Below the pieces are notes generated by a model. It was not told where the DNA came from and did no database searches. It worked only from the letters and a program-made list of their open reading frames with translations. This document shows positions 18,431 to 24,012 of a DNA stretch of 64,000 bases, piece after piece. Origin of the DNA: Psychroserpens sp. SPM9 (GTDB taxonomy: Bacteria; Bacteroidota; Bacteroidia; Flavobacteriales; Flavobacteriaceae); assembly GCF_025153525.1 (NCBI RefSeq), contig NZ_JANZNR010000002.1, positions 248,001-312,000 of the forward strand, written 5' to 3'. Position 1 is the first letter of the stretch. Every line of letters begins with the position of its first letter. A program made the translations under genes and the position numbers.

Positions 18431-19162
18431 ATGAAAAAAGTCGCAGTAATAAGCCTTTTAGGAGCTATAATTTTAATTATTAGTTTATCTGCTTTCAGAA
18501 GTAAGCAAGAAATTAATGACCCAAGGTTTATAATTCATACTCTAGATTTAAAAAAGCAAACCTTAAAATTTTACCTTCAAAATAAACAGGGGATTAATTA
18601 TGGAAATCATTATGCCTTAAAACAAGCTCTTGAAAAGCAGCATCAAAATTTGGTGTTTGCAATGAATGGAGGTATGTATTTAAGAGATGGTTCGCCACAA
18701 GGTTTATATATTGAAAATGGAATAACCAAGACTAAAATAGATACGATTAAAAAAGGCTATGGTAATTTCTACTTACAGCCAAATGGTGTTTTTTATATTA
18801 CAAAAGCGCAAAAGGGTGTTGTTTGTAAAACATCCGATTTTCTTCCAGATGCTAGCATTACTTACGCGACACAATCGGGACCTATGCTGGTAATTGACAA
18901 TAACATACATCCTGTTTTTGTAAAAGATTCTAAACATTATAATATACGAAATGGTGTTGGTATTTTGCCCAATGGCAATCTGCTATTTGCGATGTCTAAA
19001 GACACCATCACATTGTATGATTTTGCCGACTTCTTTAAAAGTAATGGTTGTAAAAATGCATTATATCTGGATGGTAAAATTTCTAAAACCTATCTTCCAA
19101 ATAAAAACTGGGAACAATTAGATGGTAATTTTGGAGTTATAATTGCTGAAACTAAACCATGA
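18431..19162 (+). CDS. Phosphodiester glycosidase (NAGPA/DUF2233) family protein
   Basis: A 243-residue exported protein. An N-terminal hydrophobic segment (VISLLGAIILIISLSAF) acts as signal or anchor. The NAGPA/DUF2233 domain shows its hallmarks: FAMNGGMYLRDGSPQGLYIE, a TQSGPMLV motif in ATQSGPMLVIDNN, RNGVGILPNGNLLFAMS, and NALYLDGKIS near the end. Family members remove exposed N-acetylglucosamine or cleave related phosphodiester glycosides; the bacterial substrate is uncertain. It begins at the base after the upstream stop, and its own stop overlaps the next start (ATGA at 19159). Confidence 0.88.
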   Translation: MKKVAVISLLGAIILIISLSAFRSKQEINDPRFIIHTLDLKKQTLKFYLQNKQGINYGNHYALKQALEKQHQNLVFAMNGGMYLRDGSPQGLYIENGITKTKIDTIKKGYGNFYLQPNGVFYITKAQKGVVCKTSDFLPDASITYATQSGPMLVIDNNIHPVFVKDSKHYNIRNGVGILPNGNLLFAMSKDTITLYDFADFFKSNGCKNALYLDGKISKTYLPNKNWEQLDGNFGVIIAETKP

Positions 19163-20292
19163 TAAACAAACGCCTTCTTATCAAAAACCTACTTGCTCAC
19201 AATGATGAGAATAGCTTTTATGATAAAAAACGAAAAGTCGATATCACGCACAAAGAAGGTAAAGCCAAGTTTTTAAAACACATTTGTGCACTTTCTAATA
19301 GCAATCCTAAAAACAATTCCTTTATTGTTATTGGTGTTGAAGATGAAGATAATAAGATTATAGGTGTTCATTTTTTTGATGACAGCAAAATTCAAAACCT
19401 CATCAATGCTTATCTCACTAATCCGCCTATAGTCCAGTATGAAAATATTCCTTTTCCACATTTACCTGATGATAAAGTTGTAGGATTAGTTACTATTAGA
19501 CCCATTGATAAAATTACTTCTCTCCGAAAAAATATCTGGAAATATTATGGCGGTTCGGTGTTTTTTAGAGACGGAAGCATGAGCATGCCTAAAGTATTTG
19601 ATATTGAAATTAAAGATGTTAATTCCAAAATTGTAAACGCTATAGAAGCGCATGCACAAAACAATATTGAATATACATTAGACGGTGTTTTCGATTTTAT
19701 GAATAAACGTAAAGATTACAATCCGCAGTATAAAGTGTTTAAAGAGTATTTTGTTTTATGTTGGTCTGGTCAGAAAAAAGTAATCAAAAATGATGTTTTT
19801 TTCTCTAGAGTTGATATCGAATTAATCAATGAACAAGTTCGTTTATTTTTTTCAACGCTCGATGAAGTTTCTATAACTTACGACAGTAATACATTCAAAA
19901 TAATAGAATATGTGAGCTTAGGACTTCAAAATCAAAACAAGTATTATAAGTTAGAAGAAACCCTAATTCACTTTGAAGACAATGCGCACTACACCATTGA
20001 AACCAAACTTCTATTTGAGCCACCACAATTTGATAAAAAAGTACTCCATCATATCTACAATTCTAATAATGCCATTTTAGAAAAAATAAAAAAAGGCTTT
20101 ACACTCAATAAAAATGAAGTCTTGGATCTTAAAAACCTTCCAGCAACCTACCTTATATGCTATTTTAACGCATTTCATGAAGCCTTAGATAAATTAAATG
20201 AAGCTAAACCTTATTTAAAGGCTTACAGCAAAACTATTTACAATTCGTATCAAGAGGCGATTCGAATTTTACGCAAAGTAAAGTACAGTTAA
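19159..20292 (+). CDS. AlbA_2 (Schlafen-like) domain protein
   Basis: A 377-residue cytoplasmic protein. Residues 1-150 fit the AlbA_2 or Schlafen-like putative nucleic-acid-binding domain, with FLKHICALSNSNPKNNSFIV leading into VIGVEDEDNKIIGV, and KYYGGSVFFRDGSMSMP closing the domain. The C-terminal 220 residues are lysine- and aromatic-rich and I recognise no catalytic motif. The ATG overlaps the preceding stop by 4 bases, indicating translational coupling. A 15-bp perfect inverted repeat covers its stop codon and ends the operon. Automatic pipelines tend to call such proteins ATP-binding; the sequence shows no Walker motif. Confidence 0.75.
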   Translation: MINKRLLIKNLLAHNDENSFYDKKRKVDITHKEGKAKFLKHICALSNSNPKNNSFIVIGVEDEDNKIIGVHFFDDSKIQNLINAYLTNPPIVQYENIPFPHLPDDKVVGLVTIRPIDKITSLRKNIWKYYGGSVFFRDGSMSMPKVFDIEIKDVNSKIVNAIEAHAQNNIEYTLDGVFDFMNKRKDYNPQYKVFKEYFVLCWSGQKKVIKNDVFFSRVDIELINEQVRLFFSTLDEVSITYDSNTFKIIEYVSLGLQNQNKYYKLEETLIHFEDNAHYTIETKLLFEPPQFDKKVLHHIYNSNNAILEKIKKGFTLNKNEVLDLKNLPATYLICYFNAFHEALDKLNEAKPYLKAYSKTIYNSYQEAIRILRKVKYS

Positions 20293-20341: not shown

Positions 20342-20917
20342 TTAGAATTTCTCATCTTTTTTGAAAGGACACACTACAGCATGAGCAATAACATATATAT
20401 CTCCATCAACATCATCGATTTTATAACTATCGTCTAATGCTCCATCAGAAATATTATGCCCTTCTGTATATTGGCCAGGAGCAACAGTAAATTGCCCATT
20501 TCTCTTTCTCGGGTATTTTTCATTTCCTACAAATAGATGAGTTTCAAAAAAACCATAACCTTCATGAGCAACAAAATCTACTAAAACATAATCAGACTCA
20601 TAAACGATAGTTAGCGTCCCTATTTCTTCTCCATTATCAAGGTTGCAGCCTCCTGCAGCTTGATATATTGGATATGATTGGTTATGATAAGCAGAAATAG
20701 GCCCAATTGTCCAACCCCATTTATTTGAGTTTAAATCATCATCATCTAAAAAGCAGATTGCTTCATCTTTTTTACCATAAGCATAAGCGGTCTCACATAG
20801 GCTTTTTTCATCTTTTGGCTCTCTATCCAAAGCGTTTTCAGAAGTAATTTCTTCATTTTCACAAGACGAAAGTGAAACAAAAAAAGAAAGCATAATTAAT
20901 TTAAGTAATGTTTTCAT
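20342..20917 (-). CDS. Lipoprotein with flavobacterial ETAYAY-type domain, function unknown
   Basis: A 191-residue lipoprotein with signal peptide LLKLIMLSFFVSLSSC and lipobox Cys at about residue 19, followed by acidic ENEE. The mature domain begins LCETAYAYGKKDEAICFLDD and continues with KWGWTIGPI, AAGGCN, VAHEGYGFFETHLFVGNEKY and FTVAPGQYTEG. Similar ETAFAYG...GWTNGP...TAPGQYP stretches recur in secreted Flavobacteriia proteins, but no function is known to me. A TAACTTTA box lies upstream at 20945-20952. Its leader shares a 13-nt segment (GCTATTAATCAAT) with the two plus-strand RNA-like repeats at 21141 and 21354. Confidence 0.75.
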   Translation of the reverse strand: MKTLLKLIMLSFFVSLSSCENEEITSENALDREPKDEKSLCETAYAYGKKDEAICFLDDDDLNSNKWGWTIGPISAYHNQSYPIYQAAGGCNLDNGEEIGTLTIVYESDYVLVDFVAHEGYGFFETHLFVGNEKYPRKRNGQFTVAPGQYTEGHNISDGALDDSYKIDDVDGDIYVIAHAVVCPFKKDEKF

Positions 20918-20944
20918 AATAATATGTATTGATTAATAGCGACT

Positions 20945-21079: not shown

Positions 21080-21229
21080 TTACCATTCATAGAGTTTTTT
21101 TAACCACTTACAGTTTTTTTTGCTAAGTGACTTCCTTTTTTACGATTTTAGCAGTGCTATTAATCAATTACATACAACCTTATTTCAACATCGGTTAGCC
21201 GAAAGCGAGATAAGGTTTTTGTTTTTTAC
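21080..21229 (+). repeat. First copy of a 150-bp duplicated intergenic element
   Basis: Aligns without indels, at an offset of 213, to 21293-21440. The first 40 bp (21081-21120) differ at 3 positions from copy 2. The next 20 bp diverge freely. The following 40 bp (21141-21180) differ at only 1 position. The rest is a hairpin with paired changes. Conserved - variable - conserved blocks of this size look like promoter elements, spacer, and transcript start. The 5' block itself holds two similar units (ACCATTCATAGAGTTTTTTT and ACCACTTACAGTTTTTTTT). Confidence 0.75.
21151..21228 (+). ncRNA. Candidate small structured RNA, copy 1
   Basis: Proposed transcript on the plus strand, starting just after the TACGATTTTA box at 21141. 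It has a conserved single-stranded 5' segment (GCTATTAATCAATTACATA) and then a terminator-like hairpin. CCTTATTTC (21178-21186) pairs with GAGATAAGG (21207-21215), with an inner stem TCGG/CCGA around a TTAG loop, followed by GTTTTTGTTTTTT-type T-rich sequence. There is no plus-strand ORF nearby. It is either a short independent sRNA or a terminated leader. Evidence is comparative, from two copies only; expression is not shown. Confidence 0.5.
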
Positions 21230-21292
21230 GCCATTAGATTTCTAGTCAAATTGACTAAAATTCGAATTTTTTAATTCAGAAAAATCGTATAA

Positions 21293-21440
21293 TTACCATT
21301 CATACAGTTTTTTTTACCACTTATAGTTTTTTTTAGAAAACACACTTAATTTTTACGATTTTAGCAGTGCTATTAATCAATTACATATAACCTTGTTTCA
21401 ATGTCGACGTGTCGAATGTGAAACAGGGTTTTTGTTTTTA
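21293..21440 (+). repeat. Second copy of the 150-bp duplicated intergenic element
   Basis: Partner of 21080-21229 with the same internal order and spacing. Upstream units ACCATTCATACAGTTTTTTT and ACCACTTATAGTTTTTTTT are followed by a divergent 20-bp spacer, the TACGATTTTA box at 21354 and the shared 5' segment. It ends 6 bp before the stop of the convergent DUF1501 gene, so the T-run may also serve as a boundary there. Confidence 0.75.
21364..21440 (+). ncRNA. Candidate small structured RNA, copy 2
   Basis: Same layout as copy 1. CCTTGTTTCA (21391-21400) pairs with TGAAACAGGG (21419-21428), with an inner stem TCGA/TCGA (21404-21407 and 21412-21415) and a T-rich tail. Relative to copy 1, the A-T pair 21182/21211 becomes G-C at 21395/21424, and the inner G-C pair 21194/21199 becomes A-T at 21407/21412. 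These two double substitutions keep the pairing, which supports a conserved RNA fold rather than chance repetition. Confidence 0.55.
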
Positions 21441-21445
21441 TAGCT

Positions 21446-22636
21446 TTAAACAAACTTTAGTTTTGGAAAAGAGGCATTCAAAATTGCATCGTCTTGCACA
21501 GCTAACCATCGGTCTAAAATAGTAGCATAAACAGATCTAAAATCTACTGTATATTTTAAATCACCATTGTCATCTAAGTCTGATAAACTTGCGAGTTCAT
21601 TATAAAATCCAGGTTTTTTTAACTGATTCCCAATAATAAAAAGATTATTTGCTGCTCCGTGATCTGTTCCATTAGCAGCATTTTGTTTTACACGCCTTCC
21701 AAATTCTGAAAAGGTTACAATAAGTGTATCATCAAATGTCCCTTGCTGTTTCAAATCTCTAACAAAAGCTTCAATGCTTTCGGCATAAATCTTCAATAAT
21801 CGCGCTTGACTATTTACTTGTCCCGCGTGCGTATCAAATCCATTAAGTGAGGCATAAAAGACTTTAGTTTCAATGCCAGAGTTAATAAGTTTAGCAGAGG
21901 TCTTGAGCTGATGGGCAAACCCGTTATTTGGATAGGTTTGTGTATTAGACGTCGTTTTGTACTTTTCAAAAATGTATTTTGCCGAAGACTCAGCAGAAAT
22001 CATAGTTTTATACAAATACCCTAAATTATGCTCACTTAAATGTTCATCTTGGTAATAGTTTAAAACATTCTTAAAATAGGGATCTTGAGAGGTTCTAAAC
22101 AAAACAGCTGGATTTGTTGTTGCAATTCCATTGATATGCTCTCCTTTTAAAACTAACGATAAACTATCATCAATTTCAATGGCATTGTAAGGTTTTTTTC
22201 CATAGCTATCTAAATAACGTCCAATCCAACCTGTTTTTAAATACTGTTCTGCACTACTTCCTGTTTGCCATATATCTGTGGCTCTAAAATGTGAGCGATT
22301 AGGGTTTGGGTAGCCCACGTTATTAATGATGGTAAGATAACCTTCGTCATATAACTTTTTTAGCGGACGTAAATTGGGGTGAAACCCAAGTTCGTCGGTA
22401 ACCTTAATAGCTTCTTTTTTTTGAATTGCAATTTTAGGGCGATTGCGATAATAATCATCATTATGAAACGGAATAATGGTGTTTAAACCGTCATTTCCTC
22501 CAGATAATTGTATTATAACAAGTCGTTTGTAGCCCAAACTAGAAGCTGATACGTTTTCAAATGCTTTTATAAAACTAGGCACAAAAAATAAGCTACTTGC
22601 TAGCGTTGATTGTTTTAAAAATTGTCTTCTGTCCAT
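21446..22636 (-). CDS. DUF1501 domain protein with Tat-type signal
   Basis: A 396-residue exported protein of the DUF1501 family. The N-terminus MDRRQFLKQSTLASSLFFVP carries a twin-arginine motif (RRQFLK), consistent with Tat export of a folded protein. Family landmarks are VIIQLSGGNDGLNTIIPFHN near the start, SHFRATDIWQTGS, LNGFDTHAGQVNSQARLLKI, and FSEFGRRVKQNAANGTDHGA. These resemble the alkaline-phosphatase/sulfatase-like fold proposed for the group. The chosen ATG at 22636 lies 2 bp after the DUF1800 stop; a longer frame starts at TTG and would overlap that gene. DUF1501 and DUF1800 genes are found together across many bacteria; the activity is not established. Confidence 0.92.
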   Translation of the reverse strand: MDRRQFLKQSTLASSLFFVPSFIKAFENVSASSLGYKRLVIIQLSGGNDGLNTIIPFHNDDYYRNRPKIAIQKKEAIKVTDELGFHPNLRPLKKLYDEGYLTIINNVGYPNPNRSHFRATDIWQTGSSAEQYLKTGWIGRYLDSYGKKPYNAIEIDDSLSLVLKGEHINGIATTNPAVLFRTSQDPYFKNVLNYYQDEHLSEHNLGYLYKTMISAESSAKYIFEKYKTTSNTQTYPNNGFAHQLKTSAKLINSGIETKVFYASLNGFDTHAGQVNSQARLLKIYAESIEAFVRDLKQQGTFDDTLIVTFSEFGRRVKQNAANGTDHGAANNLFIIGNQLKKPGFYNELASLSDLDDNGDLKYTVDFRSVYATILDRWLAVQDDAILNASFPKLKFV

Positions 22637-22638
22637 AA

Positions 22639-24012
22639 TTAACACATTTGATATTCTGGTAATGACATTAACTGAACACAATAATCTTGTTTTGACGATT
22701 GACTTAATGTCTGTAAATAGGTTTCGGTCCCAGCACTAAGCTCAGGAATAATTAGCAAGGTTTTTAAATCATTTACCTTTACATTTTTGAACTGGTAATT
22801 AAAGGTTTCCCAGTCGACCTCAACAGATACAAATTCATTTTTCTTTTTGTTTGAACGGTACTTATCAAAAGTATCTTCAAACTCACCTTTTTCTCTTAGA
22901 GATATTTCGGCATTAGCTAAAATAATCGAAGGTAATTTTAATCGCAGCATCAATGTGTTACTGTCAATCCAGCTTTTTCCACCTTTCCATCCAGCTACAT
23001 TTGGTGGATTTAATAACATTTGCCCTAGCAATTTCTGAATTTTAAAAACGTCCTTTTCTTTTTTAAATGTCACGGGAACCGTTTTTCTCAAGCCGACTAA
23101 AAATTCAATTGGAGATTTTATCTTTATTCCTATATTGGCTTCCTCGTAAAACCAATCAGACATAAACAAATAACGCATTAAACGTTCAATATTATAGTCT
23201 TCAAAAAAGATATTGGTTAATTCTTCAACTCGTTTTTCATTTATAGTGTCATTAACAAAATACCTATAAATCTTTCCGCAGACAAAACGAGCACATTGCT
23301 TTTGCTTTAAAATAATATCTATAATATCATCACCATCATAACGACCAGAATGACCAAAAAAAGTTTTAAAATCATAATCATGATGAAACCTTCTAAGCAT
23401 AAAATCGCCTTCAAAATTATTATTATATCCCGTAAAAGCTCTTGCGCTTTCTTTAATATCTTCTTCAGTGTAATGGCCTTCACCTAAAGTAAATAACTCC
23501 ATTAGTTCTCTGGCAAAATTCTCGTTGGGTTTTTGCTTTCGATTTTGCTTATTATTTAAAAATTTAAGCATGGCTGCTTCTTTAGAAATCGCTTTAACAA
23601 AATCTCCAAAGTGACCTAATGCATGATTCCGTAAAGTGTTATTGTATTGCTGAACATGATAAATATGTTCATCGCGACATACAAAATGGTTCGCCCAAAA
23701 CAAGGTCATTTTTTCTCTTAAAGTTTCTTTTGAAGTCACTAATCGATTGACCCATGCCACATTATAGGTCTTGAGTTTTTCTCTACTTATTTTTCTAAAC
23801 TCGGGTAGCTGTGTTTTATTTTTTAAGATATATGCTGTGGAAAAATGATCAATTTCAGAAGTGTCTACCTTAAGAGGTGTTGCACTAGAAGATGCTTTAA
23901 ACAACATATCAACAACCTGCTCTTTGCTTTTTTGAGATACGGTATTAAGTTGTTTTGGCCTTATTCCAAAACCTGCTCTCCAGAATAAATGTTGCACATG
24001 ACGTTGTTTCAT
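22639..24012 (-). CDS. DUF1800 domain protein
   Basis: A 457-residue protein of the DUF1800 family, upstream partner of DUF1501. Typical landmarks are HLFWRAGFGIRPKQLN at the N-terminus, LREKMTLFWANHFVC, NHALGHFGDFVKAISKEAAM, NENFARELMELFTLGEGHYT, ARAFTGYN, and LLNPPNVAGWKGGKSWIDS. No clear signal peptide is visible, so location is uncertain. The gene opens a two-gene operon and is insulated on its upstream side by the terminator of the dehydrogenase gene. Biochemical role unknown. Confidence 0.92.
   Translation of the reverse strand: MKQRHVQHLFWRAGFGIRPKQLNTVSQKSKEQVVDMLFKASSSATPLKVDTSEIDHFSTAYILKNKTQLPEFRKISREKLKTYNVAWVNRLVTSKETLREKMTLFWANHFVCRDEHIYHVQQYNNTLRNHALGHFGDFVKAISKEAAMLKFLNNKQNRKQKPNENFARELMELFTLGEGHYTEEDIKESARAFTGYNNNFEGDFMLRRFHHDYDFKTFFGHSGRYDGDDIIDIILKQKQCARFVCGKIYRYFVNDTINEKRVEELTNIFFEDYNIERLMRYLFMSDWFYEEANIGIKIKSPIEFLVGLRKTVPVTFKKEKDVFKIQKLLGQMLLNPPNVAGWKGGKSWIDSNTLMLRLKLPSIILANAEISLREKGEFEDTFDKYRSNKKKNEFVSVEVDWETFNYQFKNVKVNDLKTLLIIPELSAGTETYLQTLSQSSKQDYCVQLMSLPEYQMC

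Follow-up and report, generated by a model that had tools for sequence, protein, structure and literature searches.

Tandem predicted small RNAs with a conserved 5' seed in Psychroserpens sp. SPM9, and a possible RNA base-pairing network in the Flavobacteriaceae

What are the two similar elements that stand in tandem between two minus-strand genes of the marine bacterium Psychroserpens sp. SPM9, and what might they do? They lie in a stretch of 64,000 nt (contig NZ_JANZNR010000002.1, positions 248,001 to 312,000), here called the window, the numbering of which is used throughout. A reading of the letters alone (the sequence-only reading) had taken them for paralogous plus-strand small RNAs (sRNAs) of roughly 65-80 nt with an invariant 5' segment that could serve for pairing. 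Comparison with related genomes bears this out: the 5' part is conserved, the hairpin covaries, and one to three copies are found in 22 of the 23 genomes of the genus. Judged from these comparisons the two elements of ~71 nt are almost certainly sRNA genes. Their first ten letters are nearly invariant and recur on other RNAs, as do their complements, which suggests an undescribed network of RNA base pairing. The most likely arrangement appears to be a base-pairing hub made up of the sibling sRNAs, mRNA leaders which carry the same seed, and RNAs which carry its complement (anti-seed RNAs).

Two predicted sibling small RNA genes

The elements and their 5' seeds are as follows.

21156 to 21226, plus strand: predicted sRNA copy 1, ~71 nt, consisting of the seed GCUAUUAAUCAAUUAC, a hairpin and a T-run (folds, covariation, model matches)
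21156 to 21168, plus strand: 13-nt 5' seed of copy 1, found in all 41 distinct copies of the genus and enriched genome-wide
21369 to 21439, plus strand: predicted sRNA copy 2, ~71 nt (folds, covariation, model matches)
21369 to 21381, plus strand: 13-nt 5' seed of copy 2, conserved in the genus copies

The gapless alignment of the two copies at an offset of 213 bp was confirmed: the 90-nt segments from 21137 and 21350 are 84% identical, identity beginning as early as 21137, and the 40-bp block from 21141/21354 contains a single difference. A conserved block further upstream (42 nt from 21080 and 21293) is 93% identical, with 3 differences. The terminal hairpin and T-run ascribed to each copy were recovered on folding, both copies giving a free 5' segment and then a long hairpin with predicted energies of -17.3 and -20.5 kcal/mol (z -4.25 and -3.44; 0 of 200 shuffles equally stable). 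The two pairs said to have changed in concert do so: the outer stem pair A21182-T21211 of copy 1 is G21395-C21424 in copy 2, and the inner pair G21194-C21199 is A21407-T21412. The stretch had also been called gene-free, and it contains no open reading frame (ORF) of at least 60 aa between the minus-strand genes at 20342-20917 and 21446-22681. Together with this, the other predicted features of a trans-acting sRNA are present, namely a promoter of its own, an intrinsic terminator and a conserved unpaired region for pairing.

BLASTN with copy 1 gave matches in all 23 Psychroserpens genomes, effectively in 22 because the match in genome G008 covers 41 bp within an ORF of 563 aa. Counted by exact seed positions, three of these 22 genomes hold one copy, 16 hold two and three hold three. 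The genus alignment was made after removal of copies below E 1e-8 and kept 59 rows, 41 of them distinct. In an alignment of 58 sequences 10 of the 15 hairpin pairs change on both sides, against 4.9 after shuffling, and the cells with double-sided changes number 45 against 15.1, none of 500 shuffles being as high. Related species might have shown loss of pairing or of the 5' block; the hairpin covaries in them and the 5' segment is conserved. A covariance model built from the 58 sequences, a search of the kind that the sequence-only reading had in mind, gave matches in 72 of 299 Flavobacteriaceae genomes (58 of 236 genera), with the stricter filters of this family-wide search, by which weak copies may be missed.

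The position of the family is conserved as well, with respect to the following neighbours.

19159 to 20292, plus strand: 377-aa DUF5929/SLFN_AlbA_2 gene (Pfam), the syntenic anchor upstream of the sRNAs, in 22 of 22 genus loci
20342 to 20917, minus strand: lipoprotein-like gene of 191 aa with the seed at the start of its leader, lying between anchor and sRNAs; homologue in 8 of 22 genus loci
20928 to 20940, minus strand: the 13-mer at the 5' end of that leader, 4 nt after TAACTTTA and 10 nt before the ATG
21446 to 22681, minus strand: DUF1501 gene (Pfam) on the far side of the sRNAs; homologue downstream in 20 of 22 genus loci

Of these proteins the 191-aa one gave no match in the Pfam search. 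In other genera, 17 of the 20 regions sampled downstream of the 377-aa gene contain a seed-like start which is followed, as judged by eye, by a hairpin and a T-run; the exceptions are L175, L180 and L188, and the genome of L180 (G058) has a model match further downstream. Each of the 72 genomes has a model match that follows the 377-aa gene on its strand at a distance of no more than 2 kb; such matches number 78 of 82, and 63 of the 78 begin 54-145 nt past the gene.

With Rfam no family reached its gathering cut-off in the window. The search of ten related loci at E<=5 returned 19 weak matches, every one under the cut-off of its family, and these were rejected. Flavo-1 is absent from the matches of both searches, and the link to that motif which had been considered is not supported. 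A recurrent inner motif, UCUCC..GGCAYUG, was seen in sRNA hairpins of other genera (e.g. L171, L184, L166, L390) and is present in 21 of 110 distinct sRNA sequences; it is possibly a protein-bound internal loop.

Promoter geometry and the upstream direct repeat

Each copy is preceded by two further elements.

21144 to 21151, plus strand: -7 box of copy 1, GATTTTAG, weak with 4 of the 6 consensus letters and separated from +1 by 4 nt
21357 to 21364, plus strand: weak -7 box of copy 2 (GATTTTAG), read in the same way
21082 to 21111, plus strand: direct repeat of copy 1, ACCATTCAT-12 bp-ACCACTTAC, ending at -45, a candidate LytTR-type operator
21295 to 21324, plus strand: direct repeat of copy 2, ACCATTCAT-12 bp-ACCACTTAT, ending at -45

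The sigma-A box of Flavobacterium psychrophilum is described as TAnnTTTG at positions -12 to -5 (PMC9723704). Among 52 distant copies, 42 have a box of this type, scoring 5 or more of the 6 letters, whose end lies exactly 4 nt upstream of the seed; each of the other 59 offsets gives 0-7 copies, and the covariance model did not include the box. This spacing makes the G of GCTATTAATC the +1 position, and 5'-GCUAUUAAUC would therefore form the very beginning of the sRNA. In the window +1 falls at 21156 and 21369 by this comparison, in keeping with the starts near 21155 and 21368 that had been proposed. The first ten letters vary in only 2 of 56 fetched model matches, an invariance which is biased because the seed was located with up to 3 changes allowed, in matches to a model which itself includes it; in the genus the 13-nt seed is present in 41 of 41 distinct copies. 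The table in which the 13-mer is 100% identical is not evidence, the loci having been picked for the 13-mer. The box scores 4 of 6 in 22 of the 41 genus copies, 5 in 17 and 3 in two, and tends to be stronger in other genera (at least 5 of 6 in 46 of 56 fetched matches).

An activator-like direct repeat accounts for the conserved block upstream. Its first half-site occurs in 38 of the 41 genus copies and its second (8 of 9 letters) at offset 21 in 34 of these 38, any other offset between 9 and 35 giving 0-6 copies; the half-site patterns were taken from the genus sequences themselves. Two 9-bp direct repeats with a spacer of ~12 bp, placed upstream of the -35 region, constitute the layout of a LytTR promoter. 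Published LytTR operators (PMC6193735; also PMC11347149) share the paired 9-bp repeats and the 12-bp spacer, and those tabulated in PMC6193735 include the half-sites ACCACTTAC and ACCACTTAT letter for letter. The repeat here stops 10 bp above position -35, at -45. The first half-site ACCATTCAT is not among the published half-sites compared, and no -33 element was identified. The genome of strain SPM9 has 13 LytTR matches, one of which would probably be the activator; a LytTR-type regulator most likely drives the window copies. The direct repeat is absent, by eye, from 9 of 17 seed-bearing loci of other genera. Since the boxes of other genera also tend to be stronger, the regulatory input seems to differ between lineages. 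At L174, L177, L179 and L189 TTAA(C/T) repeats stand upstream of the sRNA in place of the ACC direct repeat; we take these to be reminiscent of OmpR/PhoB-type sites.

The seed, its complements and the case for base pairing

The 13-mer GCTATTAATCAAT has 270 exact sites in the 23 genus genomes (window-type sRNAs included) and its reversed form 2; 14 of the sites are in the genome of SPM9 itself. Individual positions were listed for genomes up to G013, and 74 sites from 8 of the 23 genomes (G002 in part) were read, sRNA copies being excluded outside the own genome, G000. These sites were sorted by hand by the author, and they are related by descent, so that P-values which treat orthologues as independent are too small. 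Thirty-three of the 74 stand at 5' ends, 19 of them in sRNA-like units (two being the window copies) and 14 in mRNA leaders, where the seed lies 10-14 nt before the ATG. An OmpA-family gene, like the lipoprotein-like gene, has a seed-bearing leader. Another 29 represent the complement: 13 in stand-alone RNAs at purE and murB, 13 in 3' untranslated regions (3' UTRs) or before terminators, and 3 in a 5' UTR. The remainder comprise a hairpin near a DCC-like gene (4), sites inside ORFs (5) and unclassified sites (3). An automatic feature test was applied to 65 sites, 9 of the 74 being dropped as within called ORFs (5 by hand sorting), and it agrees in part with the hand sorting. Compared with 296 control positions, a sense promoter box was found at 29 sites (31 controls), a sense terminator within 90 nt at 18 (29 controls) and an antisense terminator within 45 nt at 26 (25 controls). 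From the per-site list, sense box and antisense terminator are enriched mostly at different sites.

A conserved sRNA gene of ~80 nt is predicted downstream of purE on the opposite strand (L039, L098, L105, L122, L127, L143, L147, L221-L250). It was compared at 30 purE loci (purE being recognized by Pfam AIRC), 10 from the genus and 20 from other genera. A perfect TAnnTTTG box is present on its own strand in 27 of the 30 (reversed control, 2), and the 26 predicted lengths are all 65-90 nt, 24 of them 78-85. Close before the terminator, 28 of the 30 carry the complement of seed nucleotides 1-8 (GCTATTAA), and the complement of GCTATTAATC is found in 19. Extended complementarity between two conserved predicted non-coding RNAs, a feature of the sRNA/sponge type, is present here.

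Downstream of murB there is a structured RNA with the anti-seed inside a covarying outer stem, of which 7 of 11 pairs have changed on both sides (16 cells against 6.9 shuffled) in 19 sequences that were picked for containing the motif (L043, L100, L102, L116, L124, L141 and 13 of L251-L277). The end of murB could be placed in 28 of the 30 loci (not in G058 and G080). The anti-seed follows it in 9 of the 10 genus genomes. It is also present in G162, G051, G118 and G151, and G062 has a variant; in the other 13, among them all seven CTTT-seed genera and the CAAT-seed G184, it was not found. Many folds of the murB RNA have a small UUGA/UCAA hairpin beside the anti-seed.

Among protein-coding transcripts, the anti-seed is located between stop codon and terminator in genes that include ones with CAP, cupin, GH28, fasciclin, pirin, YceI and ferritin-like domains and with a META-like domain, the match to which is below the Pfam cut-off. 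Predicted duplexes of seed and anti-seed have energies of -14.1 to -19.0 kcal/mol, compared with shuffled means of -2.9 to -7.1.

The whole explanation which we favour, and which we regard as probable, is the following; in it expression, pairing in the cell, the direction of regulation and the identity of the activator are inferred from the comparisons above. The two elements would be sibling trans-acting sRNAs with an unstructured seed, 5'-GCUAUUAAUCAAU, at +1 and a hairpin terminator at the end. The direct repeat, whose centre is ~60 bp upstream, is probably bound by a LytTR-type activator, which would make up for the weak -7 box. The seed would pair over 8 to 14 nt with the purE sRNA, the murB RNA and, in their 3' UTRs, the messages of several envelope and stress genes. 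As some mRNA leaders begin with the seed, the anti-seed RNAs could also cover the translation start of these messages. By the most likely logic, mRNAs with the seed, several of which encode envelope proteins, would be repressed by the anti-seed RNAs, and these in turn would be titrated by the sibling sRNAs acting as decoys. A wider formulation is more tentative: a Flavobacteriaceae RNA tag of 10-13 nt, 5'-GCUAUUAAUC(AAU), might stand exactly at +1, both in mRNA leaders and in unrelated sRNAs that answer to different regulators, and be read by anti-tags in dedicated sRNAs and 3' UTRs, a many-to-many circuit in which distinct signals converge on one pairing code.

A number of results weigh against this explanation or parts of it. 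No clean compensatory change of seed and anti-seed was found, and lineages altered at seed letters 11-13 have no matching anti-seed change. In the seven genera with GCTATTAATCTTT seeds the purE site is GCTATTAACAA-like in six (one with an altered second letter) and GCTATTAGTG in one, pairing with only about 7-9 nt of the seed, and GCTATTAACAAWW is barely enriched in these genera. In G080 the duplex of seed and purE RNA would have a terminal mismatch. In G103 and G230 the purE anti-seed is kept, with no sRNA in the region examined and no covariance-model match. Only 64% of alignment cells are paired in the inner portion of the sRNA hairpin; the murB stem fits 2 of its 19 sequences poorly (3 and 6 of 11 pairs), and its count of pair types does not beat shuffles (116/500). 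An ATG within 45 nt downstream of the 13-mer was not enriched (16 of 65 sites, 76 of 296 controls). The general LytTR consensus scores 13-17 at the repeats, barely above the 13-16 of shuffled sequences. The evidence as a whole is genome sequence comparison.

The cases of apparent co-change are too few to count. In G027 there are matching changes at position 13 of the sRNA seed and of the purE RNA, a single case, and in G006 and G036 the changes keep G-U pairs. A strict compensatory test by means of GCTATTAACAAWW was unconvincing, with 3-8 sites versus 1-2 reversed in five genomes with the matching purE complement; three other genomes gave 1-4 sites versus 1-4 reversed.

In the light of these counter-results we continue to hold that the elements are sRNA genes with near certainty, regard base pairing as quite probably their working principle, and rate the decoy direction lower. 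Of the other explanations, the one which survives best is that the sibling sRNAs directly repress or stabilise the mRNAs with a 3' UTR anti-seed. The location of the anti-seed behind the CAP, fasciclin, META-like, cupin, pirin, YceI and ferritin-like genes fits such direct action; we consider it unlikely, as it explains neither the sense seed on mRNA leaders nor the stand-alone anti-seed RNAs.

A role of the 13-mer at the level of DNA is possible. The sRNAs would then be real and the 13-mer a transcription factor site at the starts and ends of genes, its copies in RNA being incidental. The motif does occur in both orientations relative to genes, strict compensation between seed and anti-seed is lacking, and exact 13-mer sites number only 3 in G008, which lacks a clear sRNA. 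We find this improbable, because the distance from the -7 box to the motif is a constant 4 nt in the sRNAs, which is the geometry of an RNA 5' end, because the murB anti-seed lies inside a predicted covarying RNA structure, and because sense promoter box and antisense terminator are each enriched, mostly at different sites.

A last alternative makes each element no more than a conserved 3' end (terminator or 3' UTR) of the 377-aa gene, without any function in trans, as the same-strand spacing of 63 of the 78 syntenic matches could suggest. It is very hard to reconcile with a promoter box of its own at exact spacing, with the tandem duplication and its conserved upstream repeat, with a minus-strand gene that intervenes in the window as well as at 7 further genus loci, and with an unpaired, conserved 5' segment, for which a terminator has no need.

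Post-transcriptional control in marine Flavobacteriaceae seems to be little charted, and a literature search with the seed letters returned no flavobacterial sRNA paper, judged by title and start of abstract. If the base-pairing circuit is true, envelope mRNAs, 3' UTRs and several sRNAs under the control of signals would be linked by one conserved 5' code; as the RNAs are short and precisely placed, the circuit could be tested directly in culturable strains.

Known systems and further seed-bearing loci

The FopS/GibS sRNAs of Bacteroides thetaiotaomicron, as described in PMC11697453, share the architecture of an unpaired 5' seed and a terminator, which is present here by fold and alignment. 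They are bound by RbpB and control outer-membrane protein mRNAs, control of envelope genes being proposed here, and they comprise 14 paralogues, against 1-3 copies at one syntenic locus. In the present family the seed stands at +1 and is common to unrelated sRNA-like units and mRNA leaders, and has perfect complements in partner RNAs; the two were compared by description. FopS is stated to have been deposited in Rfam (PMC11697453). FopS/GibS is absent among the 19 sub-threshold Rfam matches of the ten loci, the presence of FopS in release 15 being unchecked, and membership of that family is not supported.

SisA-D and CrfA of Caulobacter crescentus (PMC12559287), in which sibling sRNAs face one RNA that inactivates them all, resemble our two-sided layout. 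They belong to another phylum and were likened by description; here there would be many anti-seeds, including those in 3' UTRs, and leaders carry the seed as well. Rfp18 of F. psychrophilum is, like the window sRNAs, a conserved flavobacterial sRNA thought to pair with mRNAs (PMC9723704). It is described as pairing via a third stem-loop, in contrast to the single hairpin (with an inner part) and 5' seed found here. The possibility that it is the same RNA was rejected on this difference in described architecture, the sequences being unaligned.

The other seed-bearing sRNA-like units have promoters which differ from those of the window copies. Units that begin with the seed near a gene of response-regulator size were seen at L032, L092, L112, L115, L133, L135, L149 and L358, and L340 has a related unit with the seed GCTATTAATCATT. 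The response regulator was assigned by Pfam at L032, where it is of the LuxR type. The units of this class are mostly preceded by the TACGTAG-CTACGTA palindrome TACGTAGnnCTACGTA and are perhaps controlled by that regulator. At L040, L095, L106, L117, L128, L142 and L341 the seed starts the leader of a short conserved ORF, which at L040 has 46 aa and begins MKKLLLSVAALMFATLLFSQ; its product is perhaps a small exported protein.

At L037, L094, L108 and L130 the seed is followed by its own partial complement, TTGATTAA, and may be hidden in a hairpin; L360 is similar, without a perfect complement. No sigma-A box was found at the usual spacing in these five loci, and the gene beside them is one which we take to be DCC-like. 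Lastly, genome G027 contains five similar stretches (L342, L343, L346, L348, L361) ending in GTTGTTCGCTATTAATCATT, which perhaps represent a small mobile repeat that has spread the motif.
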